From the NCBI GenBank assembly GCA_020883125.1, contig JAHREW010000032.1, positions 1 to 64,000 on the forward strand: a stretch of DNA of 64,000 nucleotides, in the 5' to 3' direction. The translations under genes and the position numbers were made by a program. Within the stretch, counting starts at the first letter, position 1; the number at the start of each line of letters is the position of its first letter. The notes under the pieces are model-generated. The model worked only from the letters and a program-made list of their open reading frames with translations, was not told the origin of the DNA and did not search any database. This DNA is from Microcoleus sp. CAWBG506. GTDB taxonomy: Bacteria > Cyanobacteriota > Cyanobacteriia > Cyanobacteriales > Microcoleaceae. Positions 22,479-63,148 of the stretch are shown here, in pieces.

Positions 22479-22726
22479 AAAAAACGTAGATTAATGGAGA
22501 TAGATTTCTATGATTGTCCTCAATGTTGTTTAGTGTGAATAATAATATTATATGGCAATCCTCAATGGTTTGTGAACTAGACTTTTTGTCTGAGCCACTA
22601 AAGAACTCAAAGGCAAAGAGGAAAATCTAACGTATTCATAACTTATTTAGGATTACTATACAATACAATATCAATAACGATCCAAGCAAGAGCTTGATTT
22701 GGAGTGAAGATAAGGAGATTTCAAAA

Positions 22727-24202
22727 ATGACATTTCATCTATTCAATGCGATTTGGGGTGACAAATACACTGATTTATTTCTAAATGTCAGTTTGCCAAC
22801 TCAGCTTTCCACTGGAAATCTACCTGCTTTTAATGAAATGGGAAAGTCAGCAATTTATAAAATCTATACGACAGAGAAAGACGCAGATACTATCAGAAAA
22901 TCTCCTGTATTTGCTGAACTTTTGTCAGTGATCCCAGTGCAAGTTATCAGAATAAAAGAGGTGGATTTGAGAGATGATAAATACGGCGAACATAGCGATT
23001 CTAAATATGGAGGAATGGTATATTGTCATCGTCAAGCAACTATCGACTGTATTAAAGATAATGGTAAGCTTGTTTCGTTGATATCTGATGCTGTTTACCC
23101 TCATCAATTTTTTACGAAATTAATTAATATAGAATCCACAGGTAAACTAGCAATAATGATATTTAGTTACCGAGTGTTAAAAGAAAATTTTGTAACAGCA
23201 ATCACAAAAGAGTTTTATGCTAATAATTTGAGCGTAGCTATACCATCTCGCGATTTAGTAAAATTTTCTTTAGATCATTTACATCCTTATTCCCAAGCTC
23301 TGTTTTGGGATGCAACAGACTACAATACTTGGCCATCACATATTTACTGGAACATTAAAGAGCGGGGGTTATTAGCTAGATGTTTTAATTTGCACCCAAT
23401 AATGCTGAATTTAAGAGGAAAGGATTTAATTCCTCAAGGTACAGTAGATGGTCAATACTGGGAACAAGTGTATCCAAATATTTCGGATATTTATATAGCA
23501 GAAGATACTGATGAATTATTTGCTGTAGAAATGAGTAGTTTAAATCATACAGTCTTAGCTGCTATAAGCGATGGGAAAAAATCTGATGAATCAGAAATTG
23601 CTCAATGGGCAATTTCTCGATGGCAAGCATATCCTGTATTACACGCACAGTTACTAAAGAAACGAATCAGAGTCACAGGTAGTGATGTTGATGACACTTA
23701 TGGAAAAATAGAAGCTGATTCAGATCAAGTAATTGGAAAGATTTATAGCTGTTGGGCAGATGGATTGAGAAAAGCAGGTAGATTAGAGGAAGCGTTAACA
23801 ATTTATAGATATGCGGTTGAACTTTGCTCAAAGCAAGAAAAATATTATCAACAATTAGGTGATATTTTGGAAGATTTGGAGCAATGGGATGAGGCAATAG
23901 ATTCTTATATGCAAGTTCTACAATTAAACCCGGAAGCCGATTTTATTTATTGCAAAATAGGAGCAATATATGGCAAACAAAGTAAATGGGAAGATGCGAT
24001 ACTTTACTATAAAAAAGCAATTGAACTAGACCCAAATAATGGTCAATATTACTATATCTTAGGAGTTGCACTACAGGAGTACGCTCAGCTAAATTTAGAG
24101 AAGGCGATCGCAGCTTACCATCGAGTTTTAGAATTAAACCCAGAACATCCTGAAGCTGGCAAAAAATTGCAACAAGTTCAAGCCTTAAATCCGGTAAAAT
24201 AA
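22727..24202 (+). CDS. Glycosyltransferase-like protein with C-terminal TPR repeats
   Basis: The protein is 491 aa. Residues ~1-310 resemble a family of bacterial proteins in polysaccharide loci that start with FHLFNAIWGDKYTDLFLNVS and carry a mid-domain with LVSLISDAVYPHQFF. I recall these only as glycosyltransferase-like, without a defined reaction. Residues ~340-485 contain three to four TPR units (WDEAIDSYMQVLQLNPEADF, WEDAILYYKKAIELDPNNGQ). The start at 22727 follows a GGAG box; an upstream in-frame codon at 22694 is less likely. It precedes the dehydrogenase pair by 2 bp, so it is in the same operon. Confidence 0.65.
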   Translation: MTFHLFNAIWGDKYTDLFLNVSLPTQLSTGNLPAFNEMGKSAIYKIYTTEKDADTIRKSPVFAELLSVIPVQVIRIKEVDLRDDKYGEHSDSKYGGMVYCHRQATIDCIKDNGKLVSLISDAVYPHQFFTKLINIESTGKLAIMIFSYRVLKENFVTAITKEFYANNLSVAIPSRDLVKFSLDHLHPYSQALFWDATDYNTWPSHIYWNIKERGLLARCFNLHPIMLNLRGKDLIPQGTVDGQYWEQVYPNISDIYIAEDTDELFAVEMSSLNHTVLAAISDGKKSDESEIAQWAISRWQAYPVLHAQLLKKRIRVTGSDVDDTYGKIEADSDQVIGKIYSCWADGLRKAGRLEEALTIYRYAVELCSKQEKYYQQLGDILEDLEQWDEAIDSYMQVLQLNPEADFIYCKIGAIYGKQSKWEDAILYYKKAIELDPNNGQYYYILGVALQEYAQLNLEKAIAAYHRVLELNPEHPEAGKKLQQVQALNPVK

Positions 24203-50429: not shown

Positions 50430-50665
50430 TACCGGTTCTGTGGGAACATCCTGAGAGGGGCTGCGGTCTGGTATGTTCGTGGGTGGTGATGGCTTGAGTT
50501 CCTTGGGGGCGATCGGGCAAAACTTACTCCCAATTGTGGTAGCCTTTTGGGAAATCATTCTCGAAGTGCGTTGTCCTAGGGCGAATGGGGGTTTTAGTAA
50601 TTCGGCTGGGTGGGGTTTCGGGCGATCGTCGAGGAGTTTGAGACAATATGGGGTGAAAATATGGA
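50430..50665 (+). repeat. ~240-bp direct repeat, copy 2 (right edge of glycan island)
   Basis: Matches 16443-16682 throughout. This copy ends in the start of the aspartyl-protease-like gene at 50661 and so probably represents that gene's original promoter region. A shorter, weaker match lies at 59743-59809. Confidence 0.8.
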
Positions 50666-51149
50666 GGCGGAATATGCGACAGCTAAGGAGTGGTATAAGG
50701 CGAATCGCCGAGAGTTGAAGAAATATCGGGGTCAGTGGATCGCTTATACTAACCAAGGTGTGATTAGTGGCGATCGGGATTATGACAAAATGAAGGACGG
50801 GATTCCGGCTGATACACCTAAATTGGGTTATGTGATCGAGCGCATATTTGAAAGCGAATTTGTTGAACCAGTTAGGTTTTATCCGGTCAGGATGAGGTCA
50901 TTAAAATCTCACGATTGGCAGCCAAGATATGAATTGCATCTAAAAGTTCAAAACTCCGAAAGAGTCGAAATGCTGGTTGATTCGGGAGCCGAATTGAGAT
51001 CGATAACCAAGCAGCTTGGTGAAGATTTGGGTTGTAGTAGAACTCCTGGAGAGAGTATCAGTAAAGCAGAGGGAGTTGGCGGCAGCATTGAATATAGCCT
51101 TATCGCTCAGTTCGAGGACCAATATTTTGGGTCTCACGATACTGTTTAA
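50661..51149 (+). pseudogene. Retropepsin-like aspartyl protease gene, disrupted at the 3' end
   Basis: The first ~145 codons align closely with the intact gene at 61288-61896 (EYATAKEWYKANRRELKKY; LVDSGAELRSITKQLGEDLG). The DSGA motif is that of single-domain retropepsin-like proteases. After GGSIEYS, near 51096, similarity stops and the frame runs through antisense IS630 transposase sequence to an accidental stop. The C-terminal ~55 residues (HIFTAPVAWAQT in the intact copy) are missing, including the strand needed for folding, so the product is probably inactive. Confidence 0.75.
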
Positions 51150-51507: not shown

Positions 51508-54500
51508 TTAGGTCACTCCTGCTGACTTTAGTATATCCTTTAAGGAATCAATATTAAGGATGGCTTCGTCAATATCAAGAAGTTTTACCAGTTGAGCTGA
51601 ATTAAGATATACTTCCGCTATCATAAAATAGTATTCAAGATCGAGATAACAACACATCCAATAGTAATGATAACAAGTTGGTATATTCATGTTACCTAAG
51701 AAAAGTTCTATTACCTTTGTACCAGAATTACAAAATACTAAATTAGTTAAACCGGCACCATGTATACCAATAACAACTTTTGCACCAGCAAACAATGATA
51801 TTTGTTCCGCTACTGACAACAGTTCTGCATCTATAATCACAAAACCAAGTTTTTCTAAAACTTCTATAACTTCATTTTCATTAATAAATTTTCTCTTGCT
51901 TGCTAAACGCCTACTTATATATATTCTCTGTGGTTGTTCAGATGTAAATTTAGAGATTGATGACATTAACCTATTCCTTAAAAAGTTAATGCTACTTCTA
52001 CGGAAGTTGGCATTAGGAGGCGTGACGATCAACCTGTCTGCTCCAATATGAGAATATCCATCAAGTGTATCTATAATTTTACTTGGAGTAACCCCTAAAA
52101 TATCTAGTGTTTCTTTGTGAAAACTAGAATATTCAGTAACAACAATTTTATCTACTTTTGTAAAATCTATTCCCGCTTTTTCCATTAATCCATACTTTGG
52201 TAAATGATCTATCATCCAATGATAATAGTTCATGACGCTAAAGCCAGATATGACAGCTACAGTACCTTCAACGTAGTAAACAGGTGGTGCGTAAACGTTA
52301 CATAGATGAATATTGTTTTTTAGATTCCCTTGAGAAGCATCTAACAACACTTTATTCTCAAAGGTAACTACATAAAAATCTATTGTAGTGAGAAATGTAG
52401 GTGCATTTCTTTCTCCAAACTGCAAGTACCTACCCTTTGGTAAGGTAGCAACAAAATTGTTAGGTAAGTCTTGCTTCGACCAGAATCCATAGCTATTTGG
52501 AAATTCCTTAATTTCTCTAGGTTCTAAGTCCAAGTATTGTACAAATTGATTGGATTTAAAGGAAATAGCCCATTCTTTTGTTGTGTAGTAAGACCCTTTT
52601 AAAAACAAAGAAATACCTTCAATTTGATAATCTATCTGAACTTTAGGTATTTTTATGTTATTTTTTATATCTGCAATATATTTTAATATTGTTATTGCCT
52701 CTTGATATGTAGTGCGATCTCTGTAGCCAACTATATGTTTTAAATAATATTCTGCTTCATCTAACTTATCCTGCTTAATTAGACATTTGGCAAAACCTAA
52801 ACAAGCAACAAAGTTATTGGCTGAAATAAGCAGAGATTTTTCATAATATTCGATTGCTCTATGGATTAGATTTAGCAACAAAAAGCATTCGCCCATTTGA
52901 GCGTAAACCTTTCCATTCCATTCATCATTTGGGGAAATATCCAAGCATTTTTTCAGCAAATCAATAGCGATTTCAGGTTCACTTTTTTGGGCTAAAGCAT
53001 AATTCAAATTAAAGGATATTTCTTGAACTATATCAGTGTTATTATTCGTAAGTTTTAGTGCTTTTTTATAAGCATATACAGCTTCATCCCACTTGTCTCT
53101 GGATAGTAAAAATCTTGCCAAATATACATAGATATTAAAATAGTCTGGTTCTTCTTTAATAAATGCCATAAAAAATTTATTTTTCCAATCAGTTTGTTCG
53201 TCTAACTTGTTTTGCATAGTCAAGCTTTCAGCTTGTTTCTTATATGCTAAGGCTATGTTTGGTTCTTTTAAAAAAGCTTGGTGATATAGTTGGATTGCTT
53301 CGTTAAAAAATCCATTGCTGGAAAAAAAATCTCCTATCTGCCACCAGTCAACTTGATGCCACCATCCATCGGGTAGCTCATCCATCGATTTTATGTTACT
53401 TGTAACCAATAAACAAAACCTAGCGTATATTTCTGTTTCTGTTTGAGGGGATATTGATATTTTTTTGTAGACAGAGATTGCCTCTAGCAAATATTTTGAG
53501 TTGAGTTCAGCAGCTTTGAGGTAAGCAAGAAACGAGCTTTTAATTTGTTCTTGTCTTTGTAAGCTTTTACCTAGATAAATATAGTAATTAGCACCATCAG
53601 TAGTCTCCTCCGGTTGATACAGCCAGATGATTTCTATTAAGTTTACACTGAAGGCGATACCTTTGGCATAAAACCTGATCTCTAAATCTTTAGCATTCAG
53701 CAATTCTATATAAAACTGATAGCTCTGTTGATGAATATCTATATCATCTCTATAGATAACAAACCCTTTTTGGGAGGCGACATCAAATTCTAGTCCAACT
53801 TCTCTATTTTCGTGGTATTGATTCACACTTGTATTTTCAAAATTCAAATTTATCTTGACCTTATATAAGCCATCATGTAAATTAATATAGGGTCCAAAAG
53901 ATACCATTCCGTAATTACCTGCTCTACAGATTAGCTGCCTACCTGTAGATGTTGCAATTATTTCAGCCTGAAATAATATTAATTGCTCAGGATTAATTAT
54001 GATAGTATTTATGGCTGATAGGCGATCTAAAAAGGTACTTTCCTTATTTAAATCTGGAATAATTTCTAGCGCTTTTCGCCATTGAATAATGGCCAATTCT
54101 AAATTATTAACCTTAGCTAACTCGGCGTTTATTTGTTGCCAGACAGATATTTTCTCATCTTCCGATTTGACTTGTTTCATATCTGCTAACATTGGCTCAA
54201 TTGTCGATTCTAAGTTTTTTTTTTCTAATATGTGCGGTGTGCTTTTTTCTGTAGAAGAAACTCGAACGTTCACAGGATACCCAATTTTGCCATACATATC
54301 TCTTTGATTGCTTACCGCTATAAAAATATCGGATCTGGGAATTTCTGACGACTGATTCGGTAAGCATAAGATATCGGGAATCTTTTTACTATTATCTGCT
54401 TCTAGCAACTCTAGGGTTACTGGATTGTAACAGGAATAGCCTAAATTTTGAATGGTATGAAATAAATCATCTGTTTGTTCTTGATTAAAGAATGCAAACC

Positions 54501-57500
54501 ATTCTACAAAGAGAACAGGCTTGGCTATATCAGTAATGGGTTTAAGAGTTTTAAGAATTTCCTTGTCATGCCCTTCACAGTCAAGCTTGATTAAACTCAA
54601 TTTTTTCAAGATATCTTCGTAGTCGTGACCAAATTGGCTCTCCAAGAAAGCAACTAAGTTAACGCCCTTAACTTGGATATTCGCGGCATTTTGATTAGTG
54701 GCATTCCACCCGAACTGGTCATATCCGCCATTGCAACAGGCTGAGTCACCATAGGTGAATTCATACAAACCTTCTTGTTCCATTATTGCTACATCAAAAC
54801 TCTTTATGTTCATGCACTCCCTATTTAGGTATTGGTTAACTTCAAGTACCTGGAAAACATGAGGATTGGGTTCAAACGCCAGCACCATTCCCTCTGAGCC
54901 AGTCAGGAGAGACATTGGTAATGTAGTATCCCCACTGTGAGCGCCAATGTCTATCGCAATCGTTCCTGGCTTAATATACTCATCCCATCTTGCAGTTTTC
55001 AGGTAGTACAAAGATTGTGAAGACCAATCCCGACTTATTTCATTGGGGTGATTCCATTCTGCATAGATAAACGAACCATAATTATCTAAAACATCCTTAA
55101 CTTCTATCTTTTCAATTTTTCGGATGTAAGGCTTTTGCTTGTAGAACTCAATATCTCTTTCTAATTGGTGGTCATCTATGACCTTTTTAAATATCCCCTG
55201 ACTTTCTTGAGACGGACTATTTTTTAATTTCTTTGATAGCCGTTTGAAAGCTGAATAATAAATTTTTCTCCAGTTGACATCATAATTGGCAAAACCAGAA
55301 TTTTTATCGTCTACATAATCCACTGGTAAAATGACTGGTGCTAGAGCATTCTCTCGGACTGAGGATGACCATGTAGTTGTGACAGCATTCCACCGAGTAG
55401 CATCAACTCCATAAATAATACCAGGCTTGTTATTAACCCATATCGGAAATGTCAAACCAGCTCCTTCTGGTGCTATATAAAAATCAACAGCTTTAGCCCA
55501 TACCGACTTTTCATAATTGCTAGATTCATTTAAATTGTATATCTCGACCTGAGAAGGTATGAGCGTTCGGATTTGAGCCAAAATTTCTTTCACTTTAACA
55601 ATTTCCTCATCCGCTCTTTTATCATCTCTTTCTGGCTTGCCCCAACCATCAAAGACAATCCCTAAATTAGGAAAGTCAGCCAAGAGGCTGTTAATAATAC
55701 TGGCTATTCCTTCTACCTGAGATAACCAGACTCGATAATGACAGCGAATTCCCATCCAAATAAGCGGAGAGTGATTTTTGGCTTTTTCTATTTCTTGCAA
55801 CAATTTTGGAGAGCATTGTTTAACTGCTCCCTGATAGATACGATTGGCTAAATCTTCTTTGACAATTGCATCAGTCGGCCATACTGCTACTGACTTATTA
55901 ACCAAAATAGTTTCAAACAGAGTTTCAGGTTCTGGTAAGTTGATTATTTTTTCCCCATCTATTTCTGGATAAGTTGCCCCCAGATTGAGATATTCAAAAT
56001 ATCCGATTAAAAACTTCTCTATTTTCTGCAAATTTCCACTTTCATGCAGATACTGAATCCCCGACAACTCATTCCAGATGAAGTGAGCTATATTATTCAT
56101 ATAACCTATGACAGTCACCACATCTTTCTTTTGATCGTGGGAAATATAGGATTTGACTAACTGCCAGCAACTAACCATTTTACTCTTTAGAATATTTATG
56201 ATTCGCTCTTCACTGGCATGACAAGTATGCCTTGGCACAAAGGTGATAACTAGCTCTCGACTAGGCAAGTAAATAAAGCTTTTATCTCCCACCGGAGCTA
56301 CAGCACATACTAAGTAAAATACTTCAACACCTACAAAACGGTAAATGAATATAGAATGACTACCTAAATTTATTTCGGGATGGGGGTGGTGACAAATAAA
56401 TGATTGATTAGACCTGAGAATTCTGCCACTAAAAGGACAAATTGCATATACATAACCAGTCTCCACGATACTCTGTTGAAAATATCTGCCTTTTTTCGCA
56501 TCATGTGGGCTTTTGTCTTCCCTTAAATGCTTACCCCCTGTACGGGATAGTTGAATAGGACTGGAAACATCAAAAGAATTGATGTATATCTCTTCTAGTT
56601 CTATATCATCTTTTCCCACTAATTCTAAGTTAGCGAGAGACAAACCTTCTTGTTCAAGAAAACCGCGATCGGAATCCGTCAAAGACCACAAATTAATGAC
56701 TTGGTAGTGACTTCTTTCACTAAAATGCTTGTAGGTAGCTTCTGAGGTGATTTCTGTTGGGAAATCCTGGCTATCCTCATTAAGGATGCCTAGCTGATTT
56801 AGCCCCCGCCATATTGTTTCATAAATCTCTCCTTCACAGAGTTGTTTTTTAGATGCTTTCTGCAATATAGCGCTCGCCTCAGTTGTTAACCCTTTTTTTG
56901 CGAGAACTATAGCTAAGTTATGATGAGCTTTTACTGCTAAATAGGAATCACTTTCAAGTAACCGATCGTAACAAGCAATAACCTGTTTCTCTAAACCGCG
57001 ATCGATTAAGCTAACTACTAATTCTCTAAAAGCTTCCGGTTCTTGCCAATTTGCGATCGCTTTTGCCAAATAATTTGCTGGGTCTAGTTCCCCAGCACGA
57101 GCATAAGCTGAAAGAGCTTGTTTTTGTTGACCTTTCGCTTGTAGACTCTTTCCTAAACTGAAATAATAATCTGCACCAGGCTGATAGATTAAAGTTAGTT
57201 CTATACTGTTAACTTTGAAAAGCAGCCCTTCTCCCCAGAAACGAATTTCTAAATCTTGAGCATCTCGGTCGTTAATAAAATCTATGAAAAATTCATGATT
57301 GTTTTGATGCTCATTATAAACCTTCTCTTCATAAATCACCAAGCCTTTATTCACTGCCACATCAAACTTAAACCAAACCTTTCCAGAATTGCTATCGTCT
57401 TGGCTCAGACTATAATCTGAGTTGTCCAGGTCTATCTTAAGTCTATATAAACCATAGGGCAAACTGATATAAGGTCCATAGCAAAGTTGCCCATAATTTT

Positions 57501-59619
57501 CTGTCTGGCAAACTAGCTGCTGACCAGCTTGTGTTTGCATAAGCTGTCCTGAAATCAGAGTAAAATCTTCTGGGTTAATTCGCCAATTCTCGATCCCATC
57601 TAAGTTGCTTAAAAAACATTTCTTGCTGGTGAATTCTGGGTAAATATCTACCAACTTTCGCCATTGTGCGATCGCCTCTACCATATTACCCCTTTCTGCC
57701 AAAGTTTCACAAACTTTTAGCAGGTTTTGAATACTCTTTTCTAGTTGATGTTTGACTTGGCTTATTTCCTTTTTAAGAATATCTAGGTGAATGTCTGCTT
57801 GTTTAAAATCTCCCCCTATTTTAGCCATCAGTGCTGTCTGTCTAGGCTGAAGAAAGTGCCGATACTTAAGAATATTATTTCTCAAAAATTCAGGTACATC
57901 TTTACCATCTATGTCTCTGACATCGAAATAAAACTCACCTGATGCTTCCATTTCCAAGCTAGGTCTACATACGTCATATTTAATTTTTTCAATACCTCTT
58001 GCTTGTGAATCATCCCCTTCTTTATGTGCAAAACTTTGTAATTTATACCTACGGGATAAGTCTGAACCAAACCAACTAAATGACCAGCCACCCTTAACTA
58101 TGTATGGATGTTCAAAATACTGGTTACTATTGATGTAACCAGAACGCTTGTAAGCGGGATCGCCCATGTCTAACCCTGTGTTGATTTTGTCTGAATACCT
58201 AACTTTAGTGTAAGTTCTAACTTTAAAGTCTTTATATTTACAAGCAACAGTTCCGCACCACCACTCACTGTATAGATTATCTAAATGACCGTGATACAAA
58301 TCTTGAACAAATATGACAAATTCATGATCTTTAAGTAATTCAATAGCTTCAATCAGCTTTTCTTTGCGGGGAATTTCATCACAGTCATTGACTAGGATAA
58401 TATCCTCATCTTTGCAATCAATAGAATTTAATACCCTACTTATACAATTTTTTTGATGAACGTCAAGAGGCCATGCTTGGAGATGAACAGGTTGACTGTA
58501 GTCAATTTCAGGCATATCATCCACAACATAGTGAATGATTTTATCGTGATACTCAGCAAACTCATGGCTGAATTCTTGGTAATAAAGTGGCTTGGGGTTG
58601 CCGCTAAAGGTTTTTGTAGCTTCTACTAAAATAAACTTATCTACAACATCCTTGAGTTCTTCTATCCTAATTCTGAGCACATCTAATTCATTGAAAAAGG
58701 CAAAACAGTCATAAATGCGAGGCCGCTTTTGATTGGCTTTCATATTGGGATTGAGCTTAAAAGCCTTGTAGTAACAGAGGCTGGCTTCGGTTGTGTTTCC
58801 TCGAGCTGCTAGTGCTTCTCCTAAGTTATAGTAAGATTCGTCAGAGTTGGGACTCAGTTCAAGAGCATGACGCAAAGTATCGATCGCCCCGTCTAAATCC
58901 CCGTGCTTAATTAATAATTCCCCTAAGCGATAATGAGCTTGCACGTCATCAGGATTTAACTCAGTAATGCGGCGATAAGAAGCGATCGCCTCTTCCCACT
59001 GCTCAAGTTTGACCAATGTCTTCCCTAACTGCAACCAAACTTCAAAGTTATCCGGTTGAATCTCTAAGAGTTTGCGATAAGCCTCTACATCATCTGGATT
59101 TAACTCAATGACCTGCCGATAAGAAACAATCGCCCCCTCCAAATCCAACTGAGTCCGCTGTTGTAATACTTCCCCCAGTCTATACTGAATCCAATCCGCC
59201 CCTGGTTCAAGCTCACTAGCATGACGGAAAGCCGCGATCGCATCATCTAATTGACCCAAATTCACCAAACCTTGCCCCAACCCATAGTAAGAGCCGAAAT
59301 GTGCAGGATTAAGTTCAATGGCACGGCGGAAAGCAACCACCGCTTCCTCCCACTGCTGTTGTCTATCTAAGGCATCTCCCAAATGATGATAGGACCAAGA
59401 GAAATCCGGTTTAAGTTCTATGGCGCGACTAAAAGCTGCGATCGCTTCCTGGAATTGACCTACTTTTGCTAAAGCTTCCCCTAAATTGTGGTAAGACCAA
59501 GAGCAGTCAGGATTTAGCTCAATGGCAAGACGGTAGGCTGCGATCGCTTCTTCTAGTTTTCCCTCTTGCAGAAATTGATTGCCTTTGTCCAACTCAGTCA
59601 CAGCCATTTGCTCGTTCAT
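51508..59619 (-). CDS. Giant modular TPR-glycosyltransferase-methyltransferase, 2703 aa
   Basis: This is one uninterrupted frame. Approximate residues: TPR ~5-290 (FLQEGKLEEAIAAYRLAIEL); GT17-like ~297-595 (YDCFAFFNELDVLRIRIEEL, VNDCDEIPRKEK); beta module 1 ~675-815 (YGPYISLPYGLYRLKIDL); TPR; a GT61-related domain ~975-1460 (NNIAHFIWNELSG; APEGAGLTFPIWVNNKPG); FkbM methyltransferase ~1480-1775 (AIDIGAHSGDTTLPMSLLTG, LIKLDCEGHDKEIL); beta module 2 ~1866-2010, a clear duplicate of module 1; TPR ~2050-2300; and a GT61-like C-domain ~2440-2660 (NYYHWMIDHLPKYG, VVIGIHGAGLTNLVF). There is no signal peptide, so it acts in the cytosol or at the membrane. It may build and methylate one glycan in an assembly-line fashion (inference). 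HIP1 sites crowd the 5' end and seem absent from about 51.5 to 57 kb. Confidence 0.8.
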   Translation of the reverse strand: MNEQMAVTELDKGNQFLQEGKLEEAIAAYRLAIELNPDCSWSYHNLGEALAKVGQFQEAIAAFSRAIELKPDFSWSYHHLGDALDRQQQWEEAVVAFRRAIELNPAHFGSYYGLGQGLVNLGQLDDAIAAFRHASELEPGADWIQYRLGEVLQQRTQLDLEGAIVSYRQVIELNPDDVEAYRKLLEIQPDNFEVWLQLGKTLVKLEQWEEAIASYRRITELNPDDVQAHYRLGELLIKHGDLDGAIDTLRHALELSPNSDESYYNLGEALAARGNTTEASLCYYKAFKLNPNMKANQKRPRIYDCFAFFNELDVLRIRIEELKDVVDKFILVEATKTFSGNPKPLYYQEFSHEFAEYHDKIIHYVVDDMPEIDYSQPVHLQAWPLDVHQKNCISRVLNSIDCKDEDIILVNDCDEIPRKEKLIEAIELLKDHEFVIFVQDLYHGHLDNLYSEWWCGTVACKYKDFKVRTYTKVRYSDKINTGLDMGDPAYKRSGYINSNQYFEHPYIVKGGWSFSWFGSDLSRRYKLQSFAHKEGDDSQARGIEKIKYDVCRPSLEMEASGEFYFDVRDIDGKDVPEFLRNNILKYRHFLQPRQTALMAKIGGDFKQADIHLDILKKEISQVKHQLEKSIQNLLKVCETLAERGNMVEAIAQWRKLVDIYPEFTSKKCFLSNLDGIENWRINPEDFTLISGQLMQTQAGQQLVCQTENYGQLCYGPYISLPYGLYRLKIDLDNSDYSLSQDDSNSGKVWFKFDVAVNKGLVIYEEKVYNEHQNNHEFFIDFINDRDAQDLEIRFWGEGLLFKVNSIELTLIYQPGADYYFSLGKSLQAKGQQKQALSAYARAGELDPANYLAKAIANWQEPEAFRELVVSLIDRGLEKQVIACYDRLLESDSYLAVKAHHNLAIVLAKKGLTTEASAILQKASKKQLCEGEIYETIWRGLNQLGILNEDSQDFPTEITSEATYKHFSERSHYQVINLWSLTDSDRGFLEQEGLSLANLELVGKDDIELEEIYINSFDVSSPIQLSRTGGKHLREDKSPHDAKKGRYFQQSIVETGYVYAICPFSGRILRSNQSFICHHPHPEINLGSHSIFIYRFVGVEVFYLVCAVAPVGDKSFIYLPSRELVITFVPRHTCHASEERIINILKSKMVSCWQLVKSYISHDQKKDVVTVIGYMNNIAHFIWNELSGIQYLHESGNLQKIEKFLIGYFEYLNLGATYPEIDGEKIINLPEPETLFETILVNKSVAVWPTDAIVKEDLANRIYQGAVKQCSPKLLQEIEKAKNHSPLIWMGIRCHYRVWLSQVEGIASIINSLLADFPNLGIVFDGWGKPERDDKRADEEIVKVKEILAQIRTLIPSQVEIYNLNESSNYEKSVWAKAVDFYIAPEGAGLTFPIWVNNKPGIIYGVDATRWNAVTTTWSSSVRENALAPVILPVDYVDDKNSGFANYDVNWRKIYYSAFKRLSKKLKNSPSQESQGIFKKVIDDHQLERDIEFYKQKPYIRKIEKIEVKDVLDNYGSFIYAEWNHPNEISRDWSSQSLYYLKTARWDEYIKPGTIAIDIGAHSGDTTLPMSLLTGSEGMVLAFEPNPHVFQVLEVNQYLNRECMNIKSFDVAIMEQEGLYEFTYGDSACCNGGYDQFGWNATNQNAANIQVKGVNLVAFLESQFGHDYEDILKKLSLIKLDCEGHDKEILKTLKPITDIAKPVLFVEWFAFFNQEQTDDLFHTIQNLGYSCYNPVTLELLEADNSKKIPDILCLPNQSSEIPRSDIFIAVSNQRDMYGKIGYPVNVRVSSTEKSTPHILEKKNLESTIEPMLADMKQVKSEDEKISVWQQINAELAKVNNLELAIIQWRKALEIIPDLNKESTFLDRLSAINTIIINPEQLILFQAEIIATSTGRQLICRAGNYGMVSFGPYINLHDGLYKVKINLNFENTSVNQYHENREVGLEFDVASQKGFVIYRDDIDIHQQSYQFYIELLNAKDLEIRFYAKGIAFSVNLIEIIWLYQPEETTDGANYYIYLGKSLQRQEQIKSSFLAYLKAAELNSKYLLEAISVYKKISISPQTETEIYARFCLLVTSNIKSMDELPDGWWHQVDWWQIGDFFSSNGFFNEAIQLYHQAFLKEPNIALAYKKQAESLTMQNKLDEQTDWKNKFFMAFIKEEPDYFNIYVYLARFLLSRDKWDEAVYAYKKALKLTNNNTDIVQEISFNLNYALAQKSEPEIAIDLLKKCLDISPNDEWNGKVYAQMGECFLLLNLIHRAIEYYEKSLLISANNFVACLGFAKCLIKQDKLDEAEYYLKHIVGYRDRTTYQEAITILKYIADIKNNIKIPKVQIDYQIEGISLFLKGSYYTTKEWAISFKSNQFVQYLDLEPREIKEFPNSYGFWSKQDLPNNFVATLPKGRYLQFGERNAPTFLTTIDFYVVTFENKVLLDASQGNLKNNIHLCNVYAPPVYYVEGTVAVISGFSVMNYYHWMIDHLPKYGLMEKAGIDFTKVDKIVVTEYSSFHKETLDILGVTPSKIIDTLDGYSHIGADRLIVTPPNANFRRSSINFLRNRLMSSISKFTSEQPQRIYISRRLASKRKFINENEVIEVLEKLGFVIIDAELLSVAEQISLFAGAKVVIGIHGAGLTNLVFCNSGTKVIELFLGNMNIPTCYHYYWMCCYLDLEYYFMIAEVYLNSAQLVKLLDIDEAILNIDSLKDILKSAGVT

Positions 59620-60025: not shown

Positions 60026-61102
60026 ATGCTTTTATCCATCAAAACAAAGTTAAAGCTAAACAAGAGTCAGGCAACAATTATGAGCAAACACGCAGGAATA
60101 GCGAGGTTTACTTATAACTGGGGATTGGCTACTTGGAGCAACCTTTACAAAGATGGAGTAGCGCCCAACAAATACCTGCTTAAGAAATTCTTCAACAATC
60201 ATGTGAAACCTGAGTTTACATGGATTAAAGAAACAGGAATCTGCCAGAAGATAACTCAATACGCTTTTGACAATCTTGGAGACTCTTTCTCCTTATTTTT
60301 CTCGAAACAAGGTGGATATCCTAAGTTCAAGAAAAAAGGACATCACGACTGTTTCACGATAGATGCAGGCGGTAAGCCTATTCCTGTGGGCGGTACGTCT
60401 ATAAAGTTACCGACAATCGGCTGGGTGAAAACTCATGAAGGACTACCTCACACGACTTGCAAGTCAATTACTATTTCACGTACTGCCGATAGTTGGTTTA
60501 TCGCCTTTGCTTATGAACAAAATCATGAACCGACCATCAAAAGTCATGACGTAGTAGGAGTTGATTTGGGAGTAAAAGAGTTAGCTACCCTTTCAACGGG
60601 CGTAGTATTTCCCAACCCAAAACACTACAAATCGCATCAGGCAAAACTCAAGAGATTATCAAGAGTTCTGGCGAGAAAGGTAAAAGGTTCTGGAAATAGA
60701 CAAAAAGCTAAAGTCCAGCTAGGGAAACATCATGCAAAAATAGCAAACCTGAGAAAAAACACTCTGCATCAAATCACTACTTACTTATGCAAAAACCACG
60801 CAACGATAGTAGTAGAAGATTTGAAGGTCAGTGGGATGCTAAAGAATCACAAGCTAGCGCAGGTAATAGCTGACTGTGGATTCCATGAATTCAAACGTCA
60901 GTTAGAATACAAGGCTAAAAAGTTTGGTTGTGAAATAGTCATTGCCGACCGTTGGTTTCCCTCAAGCAAAACCTGTTCAAATTGCGGACATATACAAGAT
61001 ATGCCACTAAAAGAAAGGACTTACAACTGTGGAAGTTGCGGTCATTCGATGGACAGGGATTTGAACGCAGCAATTAATTTATCGCGGTTGGCTAAATCGT
61101 GA
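60026..61102 (+). CDS. tnpB: TnpB RNA-guided nuclease of an IS200/IS605-family (IS1341-type) element
   Basis: The protein is 358 aa, compact for the family. The split RuvC site is complete: D180 in VVGVDLGVKELATL, E264 in TIVVEDLKVSGML and D345 in DRDLNAAINL. The zinc ribbon CSNCG...CGSCG lies just before the last motif, and the N-terminus has the usual KTKLKLNKSQ and TYNWGLA. TnpB proteins use an RNA from the right end of the element to cut DNA and help keep the element. No tnpA lies beside it. A GAGG box precedes the ATG. Confidence 0.93.
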   Translation: MLLSIKTKLKLNKSQATIMSKHAGIARFTYNWGLATWSNLYKDGVAPNKYLLKKFFNNHVKPEFTWIKETGICQKITQYAFDNLGDSFSLFFSKQGGYPKFKKKGHHDCFTIDAGGKPIPVGGTSIKLPTIGWVKTHEGLPHTTCKSITISRTADSWFIAFAYEQNHEPTIKSHDVVGVDLGVKELATLSTGVVFPNPKHYKSHQAKLKRLSRVLARKVKGSGNRQKAKVQLGKHHAKIANLRKNTLHQITTYLCKNHATIVVEDLKVSGMLKNHKLAQVIADCGFHEFKRQLEYKAKKFGCEIVIADRWFPSSKTCSNCGHIQDMPLKERTYNCGSCGHSMDRDLNAAINLSRLAKS

Positions 61103-61287: not shown

Positions 61288-61896
61288 ATGGAAGCAGAAT
61301 ATCCGACAGCTAGTGATTGGTATAAAGCTCATCGCCGGGAGTTAAAAAAATATAGGGGCGAGTGGATAGCTTACAATCATCAGGGGATAATTAGTCACGA
61401 TCGCGATTATGACAAAATGAAGAGTGGTATCGATCCAAGCTGGTCAAGCTTAGATTATGTAATTGAGCGTATATTTGAAAGCGAGTTTGTAGAACCTATC
61501 CGCTTTTATCCTGTGAGAATGAGGACATTAAAAGCTCACGATTGGCAACCTAAGTATGAGTTAATAATGAAGTCTCAGAACGCAGTGAAAGTGAAAATAC
61601 TTGTTGATTCGGGCGCTGAACTTAGTTTAATTACCAAGAAATTAGGGAGGGATTTAGGCTGTGCTAAGGCGGAAGGAGAAATTAATAATAAAGCAGAAGG
61701 AGTAGGTGGCAGTATTGAATATCTATTACGACAGGTAGAAATGGAGTTGGATGGTCATATTTTCACCGCGCCTGTAGCTTGGGCACAAACAGATTTTTGT
61801 GAGGAGATTCTTTTAGGTAGGGAGGTAGTGTTTGACTTGTTTGATATAGAATTTAAGCAAGCTGACGAGACGATTATTTTTAAGCGACGAACATAG
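61288..61896 (+). CDS. Retropepsin-like aspartyl protease family protein
   Basis: The protein is 202 aa. It has an N-terminal ~100-residue helical/basic part (TASDWYKAHRRELKKYRGEW) and a C-terminal single-copy aspartyl protease fold: ILVDSGAELSLITKKLGRDL with the D-S-G motif, then GVGGSIEYLL, HIFTAPVAWAQ and ILLGREVVFDLFDIEF, the hydrophobic-hydrophobic-Gly segment. Such proteins would act as homodimers. It is the intact relative of the broken gene at 50661. The TnpB element ends about 90 bp upstream and may have replaced its promoter. Confidence 0.8.
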   Translation: MEAEYPTASDWYKAHRRELKKYRGEWIAYNHQGIISHDRDYDKMKSGIDPSWSSLDYVIERIFESEFVEPIRFYPVRMRTLKAHDWQPKYELIMKSQNAVKVKILVDSGAELSLITKKLGRDLGCAKAEGEINNKAEGVGGSIEYLLRQVEMELDGHIFTAPVAWAQTDFCEEILLGREVVFDLFDIEFKQADETIIFKRRT

Positions 61897-62188: not shown

Positions 62189-63148
62189 ATGAAAAAAGCA
62201 GTAATTTGTGGTATATCCGGCCAAGACGGAGCTTATTTAGCGAAATTGCTCCTCGAAAAAGGCTACTCAGTCTGTGGCACATCGCGAGATGCCCAAATGT
62301 CAACCTTCAACAACCTCACGCGCTTAGGCATCCGCGACTCAGTAAAGCTAGAATCCATGTCCCTCAACGATTTTCGCAGCGTTTTGCAAGTCCTGAGCAA
62401 AATTCAGCCAGATGAGGTGTACAATCTAGCTGGTCAGACTTCCGTAGGGCTGTCCTTCGAGCAACCAGTGGAAACCCTAGAAAGCATTGCCACCGGGACA
62501 CTGAATCTCCTAGAGGCCATCCGTTTTAGTGGAGGAAAAATAAAACTATATAATGCCAGCTCTAGCGAATGCTTTGGCGACACTGGAGGCAAAGCCGCCG
62601 AGGAAAGCACCCCATTTCATCCCAGAAGTCCCTATGCAGTTGCGAAAGCAACAGCATTTTGGGAAGTAGCGAATTATCGGGAAGCCTACAATTTGTTTGC
62701 TTGTTCTGGTATCCTATTTAATCACGAATCACCTCTGAGGCCGGCACGGTTTGTGACCCAAAAAATTGTATCAGTAGCTTGCCGGATTGTGGCGGGTAGT
62801 CCAGAAAAGCTGCAATTGGGGGATATTTCTGTACAGCGGGACTGGGGTTGGGCACCCGAATACGTGGAAGCAATGTATCTAATGTTGCAGCAGTCAGAAC
62901 CCGATGATTATGTAATTGCTACTGGGGAGAGCCATGCCTTAAAAGAATTTGTTGCTCAAGCCTTTGCCACTTTGGGATTAGACTGGGAGGAACATACAGT
63001 TATAGATACCAGTTTGTACAGACCGACAGAAATTGCACTGGGCAAAGGCAACCCTGCTAAGGCGAAGCAAAAGTTAGGTTGGCGGGCAAAATATAAAATG
63101 CACGATGTAGTAAAAATGATGGTGGAGACCCAAAAGGCTAATTTTTAA
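62189..63148 (+). CDS. gmd: GDP-mannose 4,6-dehydratase
   Basis: The protein is 319 aa. It has KKAVICGISGQDGAYLAKLL, the Gmd form of the Rossmann motif, YNLAGQTSVGLSFEQP, the catalytic NASSSECFGD and Y-x-x-x-K in SPYAVAKATAFWEV, and ILFNHESPLRPARFVTQKI, a Gmd hallmark. It makes GDP-4-keto-6-deoxymannose, the precursor of fucose, rhamnose or perosamine. A GAGG box precedes the ATG. In many cyanobacteria a fucose synthase follows; here a glycosyltransferase starts next. Confidence 0.93.
   Translation: MKKAVICGISGQDGAYLAKLLLEKGYSVCGTSRDAQMSTFNNLTRLGIRDSVKLESMSLNDFRSVLQVLSKIQPDEVYNLAGQTSVGLSFEQPVETLESIATGTLNLLEAIRFSGGKIKLYNASSSECFGDTGGKAAEESTPFHPRSPYAVAKATAFWEVANYREAYNLFACSGILFNHESPLRPARFVTQKIVSVACRIVAGSPEKLQLGDISVQRDWGWAPEYVEAMYLMLQQSEPDDYVIATGESHALKEFVAQAFATLGLDWEEHTVIDTSLYRPTEIALGKGNPAKAKQKLGWRAKYKMHDVVKMMVETQKANF

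Follow-up and report, generated by a model that had tools for sequence, protein, structure and literature searches.

Several glycosyltransferase domains and a methyltransferase are joined in a single reading frame of Microcoleus sp. CAWBG506, which raises the question of what such a chain does and how its order of modules arose. We analysed positions 1 to 64,000 of contig JAHREW010000032.1 (assembly GCA_020883125.1; this stretch of 64,000 nucleotides is the window below) and compared the gene with its relatives. Our favoured reading, to which we give a probability of about 0.55, is that it encodes a single-chain, probably cytosolic multi-transferase of a surface-glycan locus, the tail of which would be exchanged in frame between lineages.

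Modules of a single chain

The single frame of 2,703 amino acids that the first-pass annotation had proposed for positions 51508-59619, without naming a strand, exists: it lies on the minus strand, with an ATG start and zero internal stops, and frame 1 of the plus strand is full of stops. From the N to the C terminus the protein consists of TPR, GT17, beta module, TPR, GT61-like, FkbM methyltransferase, beta module, TPR and GT61, and here too the domains and their order had been read correctly. The TPR (Pfam TPR_11, E = 4.5e-66), GT17, FkbM and last GT61 parts all exceed curated Pfam cut-offs. The features, listed in the direction of the protein and followed by a neighbouring gene, are:

58744..59619, minus: N-terminal TPR block of the head, residues 1-292 (Pfam TPR_11/TPR_2)
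57835..58743, minus: GT17 domain of the head, residues 293-595 (Pfam PF04724)
57574..57834, minus: helical linker with one TPR-like repeat, residues 596-682 (aligns to PDB TPR chains)
57181..57573, minus: beta module, copy 1, residues 683-813 (alignments); its end is the head/tail seam
56665..57180, minus: second TPR block, residues 814-985, directly after the seam
55165..56664, minus: GT61-like domain, residues 986-1485 (16-row alignment, profile link to GT61, tree)
54325..55164, minus: FkbM-type methyltransferase, residues 1486-1765 (Pfam PF05050, NCBIfam TIGR01444)
54070..54324, minus: linker after FkbM, residues 1766-1850 (BLAST)
53635..54069, minus: beta module, copy 2, residues 1851-1995 (profile search of its own genome, E = 8.5e-56)
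52615..53634, minus: third TPR block, residues 1996-2335 (Pfam TPR_15 stretch 2164-2292; GC3 0.27)
51511..52614, minus: C-terminal GT61 domain, residues 2336-2703 (Pfam PF04577; GC3 0.25)
51508-51510, minus: stop codon of the large gene
62189..63148, plus: GDP-mannose 4,6-dehydratase-like gene, divergent neighbour in the conserved flank (Pfam)

The GT17 domain reaches 90.5 bits against PF04724 (cut-off 26; E = 1.5e-25, best stretch at residues 295-433), which bears out its earlier description as GT17-like. It carries the conserved acidic D-x-D-E motif of GT17 as D412-C-D414-E415; the D, D and E are identical in all 18 alignment rows. What had been called a C-terminal GT61-like domain scores 119 bits against PF04577 (cut-off 27; E = 2.2e-34, residues 2465-2637) and has the conserved residues H2467, D2471, H2620, G2621, G2623, L2624, T2625 and N2626 in place. 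The columns of its H-W-x-x-D and HGAGLTN motifs, A2622 excepted, are at least 92% conserved in 25 GT61 rows. Its sequence matches in the PDB are EOGT (2.6e-4) and POMGNT2 (0.007-0.018), eukaryotic proteins with one GT61 domain each. Searches by sequence found no PDB relatives of the GT17 or the GT61-like domain, and none below E = 0.04 for FkbM.

The FkbM methyltransferase exceeds both of its cut-offs, with 45 bits against Pfam Methyltransf_21 (PF05050; cut-off 22.7; E = 1.6e-11, residues 1557-1729) and 67.1 bits against TIGR01444 (cut-off 37.7). Its close relatives are confined to the same kind of fusion and come from 3 of the 29 genus genomes, that of the window included; the next-best relatives share at most 33% identity once 66 or more residues are aligned, and up to 47% in shorter stretches. 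A linker after FkbM that would be common to one relative, G011 (BLAST, 60.6% over residues 1486-1842), was considered and dropped, because the linker by itself gives no match: a BLAST search with residues 1750-1860 aligned to nothing in the equivalent region of either FkbM-bearing relative. Because the conserved residues of GT17 and of the last GT61 are present and FkbM lies over its cut-offs, it is plausible that one chain carries out several transfer steps.

The middle domain had been described as GT61-related with a GAGLT motif. It is present at about residues 986-1485 and is remotely homologous to GT61, but it scores 14.8 bits against PF04577, below the cut-off of 27, and lacks the GT61 histidine: in place of the His of HGAGLT the window's domain has Glu, and one of 16 family members has His. 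Only one of these 16 matches GT61 at E ≤ 0.1 (E = 0.036). The profile of the family (16 domains; partial ones, among them L024 and L074, were omitted) was aligned with hhalign to a 25-row GT61 profile, built from 24 of 30 loci plus the window's own domain and including one row that is a 66-residue fragment. The score was 46.5, with a probability of 66% and an E-value of 5.8e-5 that is valid for one single comparison; controls reached at most 25.6 in 60 column shuffles, 14.6 with the reversed profile and 16.6 with the GT17 family. In the longer alignment an H-x-x-x-[D/N] motif and GAGLT are both in register, and a PxGxGL reading fits 6 of the 16 members. Across the 16, 31 columns are invariant. 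Given the sub-cut-off score and a link to GT61 through remote profile similarity only, we term the domain GT61-like rather than a member of GT61.

Two copies of an unrecognised beta module had also been noted, and they are real: the stretches at about 683-813 and 1851-1995 share 42% identity over 124 residues (E = 4e-34), in a sequence pattern that appears beta-rich. Single copies gave only sub-threshold matches in Pfam (best 0.0049, to ACBP4_C, under its cut-off) and in PHROGs (best 0.011, to a match without a given function), and a ten-copy profile found nothing below E = 0.1 in the PDB. Strong PDB matches near copy 1 are TPR chains that fall on the linker repeat, not on the beta module. The suggestion that these modules bind the acceptor glycan is unsupported, as their likeness to cyanobacterial CBM6 (score 20.9, best shuffle 21.2; seven-row CBM6 set) and Wzt_C (13.6, best shuffle 20.3) is at the level of column shuffles (up to 30 for each). 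The module occurs in 15 of 388 genomes of the order, 12 times strongly (E below 1e-40, two genera) and three times weakly. Its partners within the genus are GT17, GT61-like and FkbM domains, and elsewhere GT2, in one protein from another genus of the family. An adaptor or hinge role may fit the position of the module better than acceptor binding.

The chain is probably cytosolic. Hydrophobicity exceeds 1.6 in 5 of 2,685 segments of 19 residues (four at 1089-1092, one at 2263). Nothing resembling a signal sequence was seen at the N terminus, where the first 60 such segments stay at or below 0.7. GC3 is 0.43 in the first TPR block and drops to 0.25-0.27 over the final three modules; the 33 ORFs of the window have a mean of 0.41 (s.d. 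0.06). The lowest value among these ORFs, 0.24, belongs to a separate one at 22694-24202 (plus strand), which was perhaps acquired.

One head with four tails

The same head is found in 4 of 29 Microcoleus genomes, including that of the window, at 77-84% amino acid identity. Within it, identity to the three relatives is 74-82% for residues 10-292 of the N-terminal TPR block, 91-94% for GT17 and 60-77% for the linker at residues 596-682. The fusions in the three other genomes are 1,341-1,833 residues long and, because they share this head, the fused frame of the window is not a product of chance or of a single sequencing error.

The four heads carry four different tails. In the window the tail is TPR, GT61-like, FkbM, beta, TPR and GT61; in G011 it is one FkbM followed by GT61-like; in G025, three FkbM stretches and GT11; and in G001, GT61-like alone, with no Pfam match in the tail. 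DNA similarity between the window and all three relatives ends at nucleotide 2438 of the gene, that is, at residue 813, the end of the beta module. FkbM follows directly after this seam in G011 and G025 (loci L029 and L031); the FkbM of the window sits behind the GT61-like domain and starts with residues similar to those of the G011 and G025 enzymes. A GT17 match occurs in 5 of the 29 genus genomes, four of them with the common head. The fifth, G003, has 50% identity and the order TPR, GT61-like, GT17, Methyltransf_24.

The exact order of the window's modules was not found in any other of the 29 genus genomes searched. Beyond the genus, a GT17-beta query matched 31 of 386 genomes of the phylum: the window's genome and G001 with both parts, 26 with GT17 only, two with beta only and one with a short stretch. 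A scan of GTDB r220 contigs for the head with six short peptide patterns, which finds close relatives only and may miss the window's own record, returned the same three relatives: Microcoleus sp. EPA2 (G011; L084) and two Oscillatoriales assemblies, G025 (L085) and G001 (L086). Two long frames in G018 (L047 1806-9296 and L048 9754-17982; 2,496 and 2,742 amino acids) contain an FkbM-like stretch and have no match to the head.

In a tree of the 16 GT61-like domains, 4 of 13 inner branches of which are well supported, the domains of the window, G011 and G001 fall in three separate places; the occurrence of these domains on the common head takes three changes on the tree, and none of 200 bootstrap trees unites them. 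The G001 domain is sister (97/96) to that of G024, a genome that gave no GT17 match.

Synonymous divergence (Nei–Gojobori) rises steeply beyond the seam. Between the window and G011, dS is 0.13, 0.08, 0.12, 0.16 and 0.03 in five flanking genes, 0.48 in the head, 1.73 in FkbM and 2.48, close to saturation, in the GT61-like domain. Flanking genes compared with G025 give 0.11, 0.03, 0.12 and 0.27, with one exception of 0.69 in a 202-residue protease-like gene. With dS in the tail far above that of the flanks, the tail copies must have separated much earlier than the flanking genes, and this signifies exchange, as judged from the four alleles found. At 0.48, the dS of the head amounts to three or more times the value of each of the five flanking genes in G011; the head is thus not fixed either and might likewise have been exchanged, and import of a whole allele would give part of the same picture.

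Neighbouring genes, known systems and alternative readings

Gene families in the neighbourhood suggest that the product is a surface glycan. They include GDP-mannose dehydratase-like, epimerase, aminotransferase, SIS, Nudix, methyltransferase and glycosyltransferase genes, some at least 20 kb away; the survey covered ORFs outside the first 24 kb of the window. The GDP-mannose 4,6-dehydratase-like gene is about 97% identical to its counterparts in L031 and L029 (dS 0.11-0.13).

An IS605-type TnpB ORF lies at 60026-61102 (plus strand), between the start of the large gene and the next gene; in L029 and L031 the corresponding gap measures about 430 and 310 bp, too little to accommodate TnpB. Two DUF5678/retropepsin-like ORFs, at 50610-51149 and 61288-61896 (both plus strand), flank the large gene with 73% DNA identity over 444 bases in the same orientation, and in L031 two such ORFs likewise stand around its version. 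The G011 version adjoins a convergent cluster (L029 17813-18577 and L030 817-5317) of glucose-1-phosphate cytidylyltransferase, CDP-glucose dehydratase-like, C-methyltransferase, epimerase-like and rhamnosyl O-methyltransferase-like genes, the place of which is occupied by other genes in the window. A CDP-sugar donor for the GT61-like domain is only a lead, because 28 of 29 genus genomes have a cytidylyltransferase over its cut-off and, among the matches listed, the one over the cut-off in the window's own genome is on another contig.

The module order had been thought to be without a described counterpart. It is unique among the 29 genus genomes, but chains that combine several glycosyltransferases with a methyltransferase have been described. 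WsaE, of the S-layer glycan of Geobacillus stearothermophilus, is a soluble chain of two glycosyltransferase domains and one methyltransferase domain (PMC2943079); it has three domains in all, its transferases are rhamnosyltransferases, and the accessible text of its description mentions no TPR, beta modules or tail exchange. In chlorovirus PBCV-1, A064R (638 amino acids) has two glycosyltransferases and a methyltransferase acting in sequence (PMC9614988), and A111/114R (860 amino acids) likewise holds several transferases in one chain (PMC7826918); both are viral, and TPR or beta modules are not mentioned in the accessible parts of these reports. Klebsiella O-polysaccharide enzymes (O7 ORF6, O12) also join methyltransferase and glycosyltransferase modules, with a distribution that differs by serotype; they work with a coiled-coil ruler and an ABC-transporter pathway, and alternative tails on a conserved head are not mentioned in the available text (PMC11231755).

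Within the genus itself, every one of the 29 genomes has GT61 matches, and many of these lie in frames of about 940-2,000 amino acids. All five long TPR-GT61 proteins examined (two in L046; L144, L145 and L146) combine TPR and GT61 in one chain as the window's protein does, but none matches its GT17, beta or FkbM parts. A 3,258-residue TPR protein in the same genome as the window (L143 532-10308, contig C18) has three GT9 stretches. We found no description of the protein, or of tail exchange at such a seam, in the literature covered, which lies mostly outside subscription journals.

These known systems suggest an alternative in which the glycosyltransferases make a repeating polysaccharide and FkbM caps it to set its length. 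The window's chain, like the accessible accounts of WsaE (two glycosyltransferases and a methyltransferase) and O7 ORF6 (a methyltransferase-kinase and two glycosyltransferases), holds several glycosyltransferase modules and a methyltransferase, and methyltransferase and sugar genes surround the large gene. We nevertheless consider this reading unlikely. The two Wzt_C matches of the genome lie on contigs C12 and C2, with none on C26 (the search was for the Wzt_C domain only, and transporters without it may exist), and a chain terminator fits poorly with an FkbM number that varies between alleles, from no methyltransferase in the Pfam-negative tail of G001 to three FkbM stretches in G025.

Alternatively, the protein could be a machine for protein O-glycosylation, with the TPRs acting as in O-GlcNAc transferase to bind a polypeptide acceptor and the GT17 and GT61 domains assembling a short glycan on a surface protein. 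The first TPR block does align with the TPRs of O-GlcNAc transferase, and EOGT and POMGNT2, the solved GT61 relatives that were matched, act on proteins. TPRs are generic, though, and a designed TPR protein outscores O-GlcNAc transferase in the same search, and we regard this role as improbable.

Drift and recombination could also have left a fusion without joint function, some of its tail domains being inactive remnants. Exchange is indeed evident and the GT61 motif is not fully kept in the GT61-like domain, but frames of 1,341-2,703 amino acids are open in four genomes, and the invariant columns of the GT61-like family point the same way. The head and FkbM are moreover under purifying selection where dN/dS, which ranges from 0.07 to 0.37, is calculable: it is 0.07-0.10 for GT17, 0.17-0.18 for TPR, 0.30-0.37 for the linker and beta module, and, for FkbM, 0.10 between the window and G011 and 0.14 between G011 and G025 (dS between the window and G025 is saturated, so that no ratio can be computed). 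A fusion with no joint function seems quite unlikely. Finally, although all four genomes are in many contigs and the three named ones are metagenome assemblies, an assembly artefact joining unrelated genes is very improbable, as the flank upstream agrees with L029 and L031, the 717-residue gene beyond the other end shares 98% identity over 495 amino acids with an L030 gene, and two further genomes have FkbM joined to this head.

Possible working of the chain and its variation

In the multi-transferase reading that we favour, the TPR blocks would serve both to hold on to the acceptor and to keep the catalytic domains close to each other. GT17 would add a sugar common to the group, and the tail modules would add lineage-specific sugars and an O-methyl group; a common first sugar and variable outer sugars or methyl groups is the simplest way to read the conserved head and changing tails, although the activity of each domain, the order of reactions and the acceptor are predictions. 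The product could be a defined methylated oligosaccharide, as proposed previously. Lineages would swap tail modules in frame, the seam lying where the beta module ends. In-frame exchange of this kind would let the glycan change while most of the surrounding locus stays, and it may have been selected for glycan variation.

More tentatively, and as a possibility that we rate well below an even chance, the conserved head and the tails exchanged at the edge of the adaptor-like beta module might amount to combinatorial glycan variation, in which a single gene, not a cluster, sets a serotype-like coat identity.

The locus points to a cyanobacterial GT61-like family that is unrecognised by Pfam, and to an adaptor domain without family assignment. 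If our reading is true, glycosyltransferase modules are already being exchanged in nature within a single chain and at a defined seam, which would offer a ready-made junction for the design of artificial multi-step glycan enzymes, and surface-glycan variation in these cyanobacteria would be readable from one gene.
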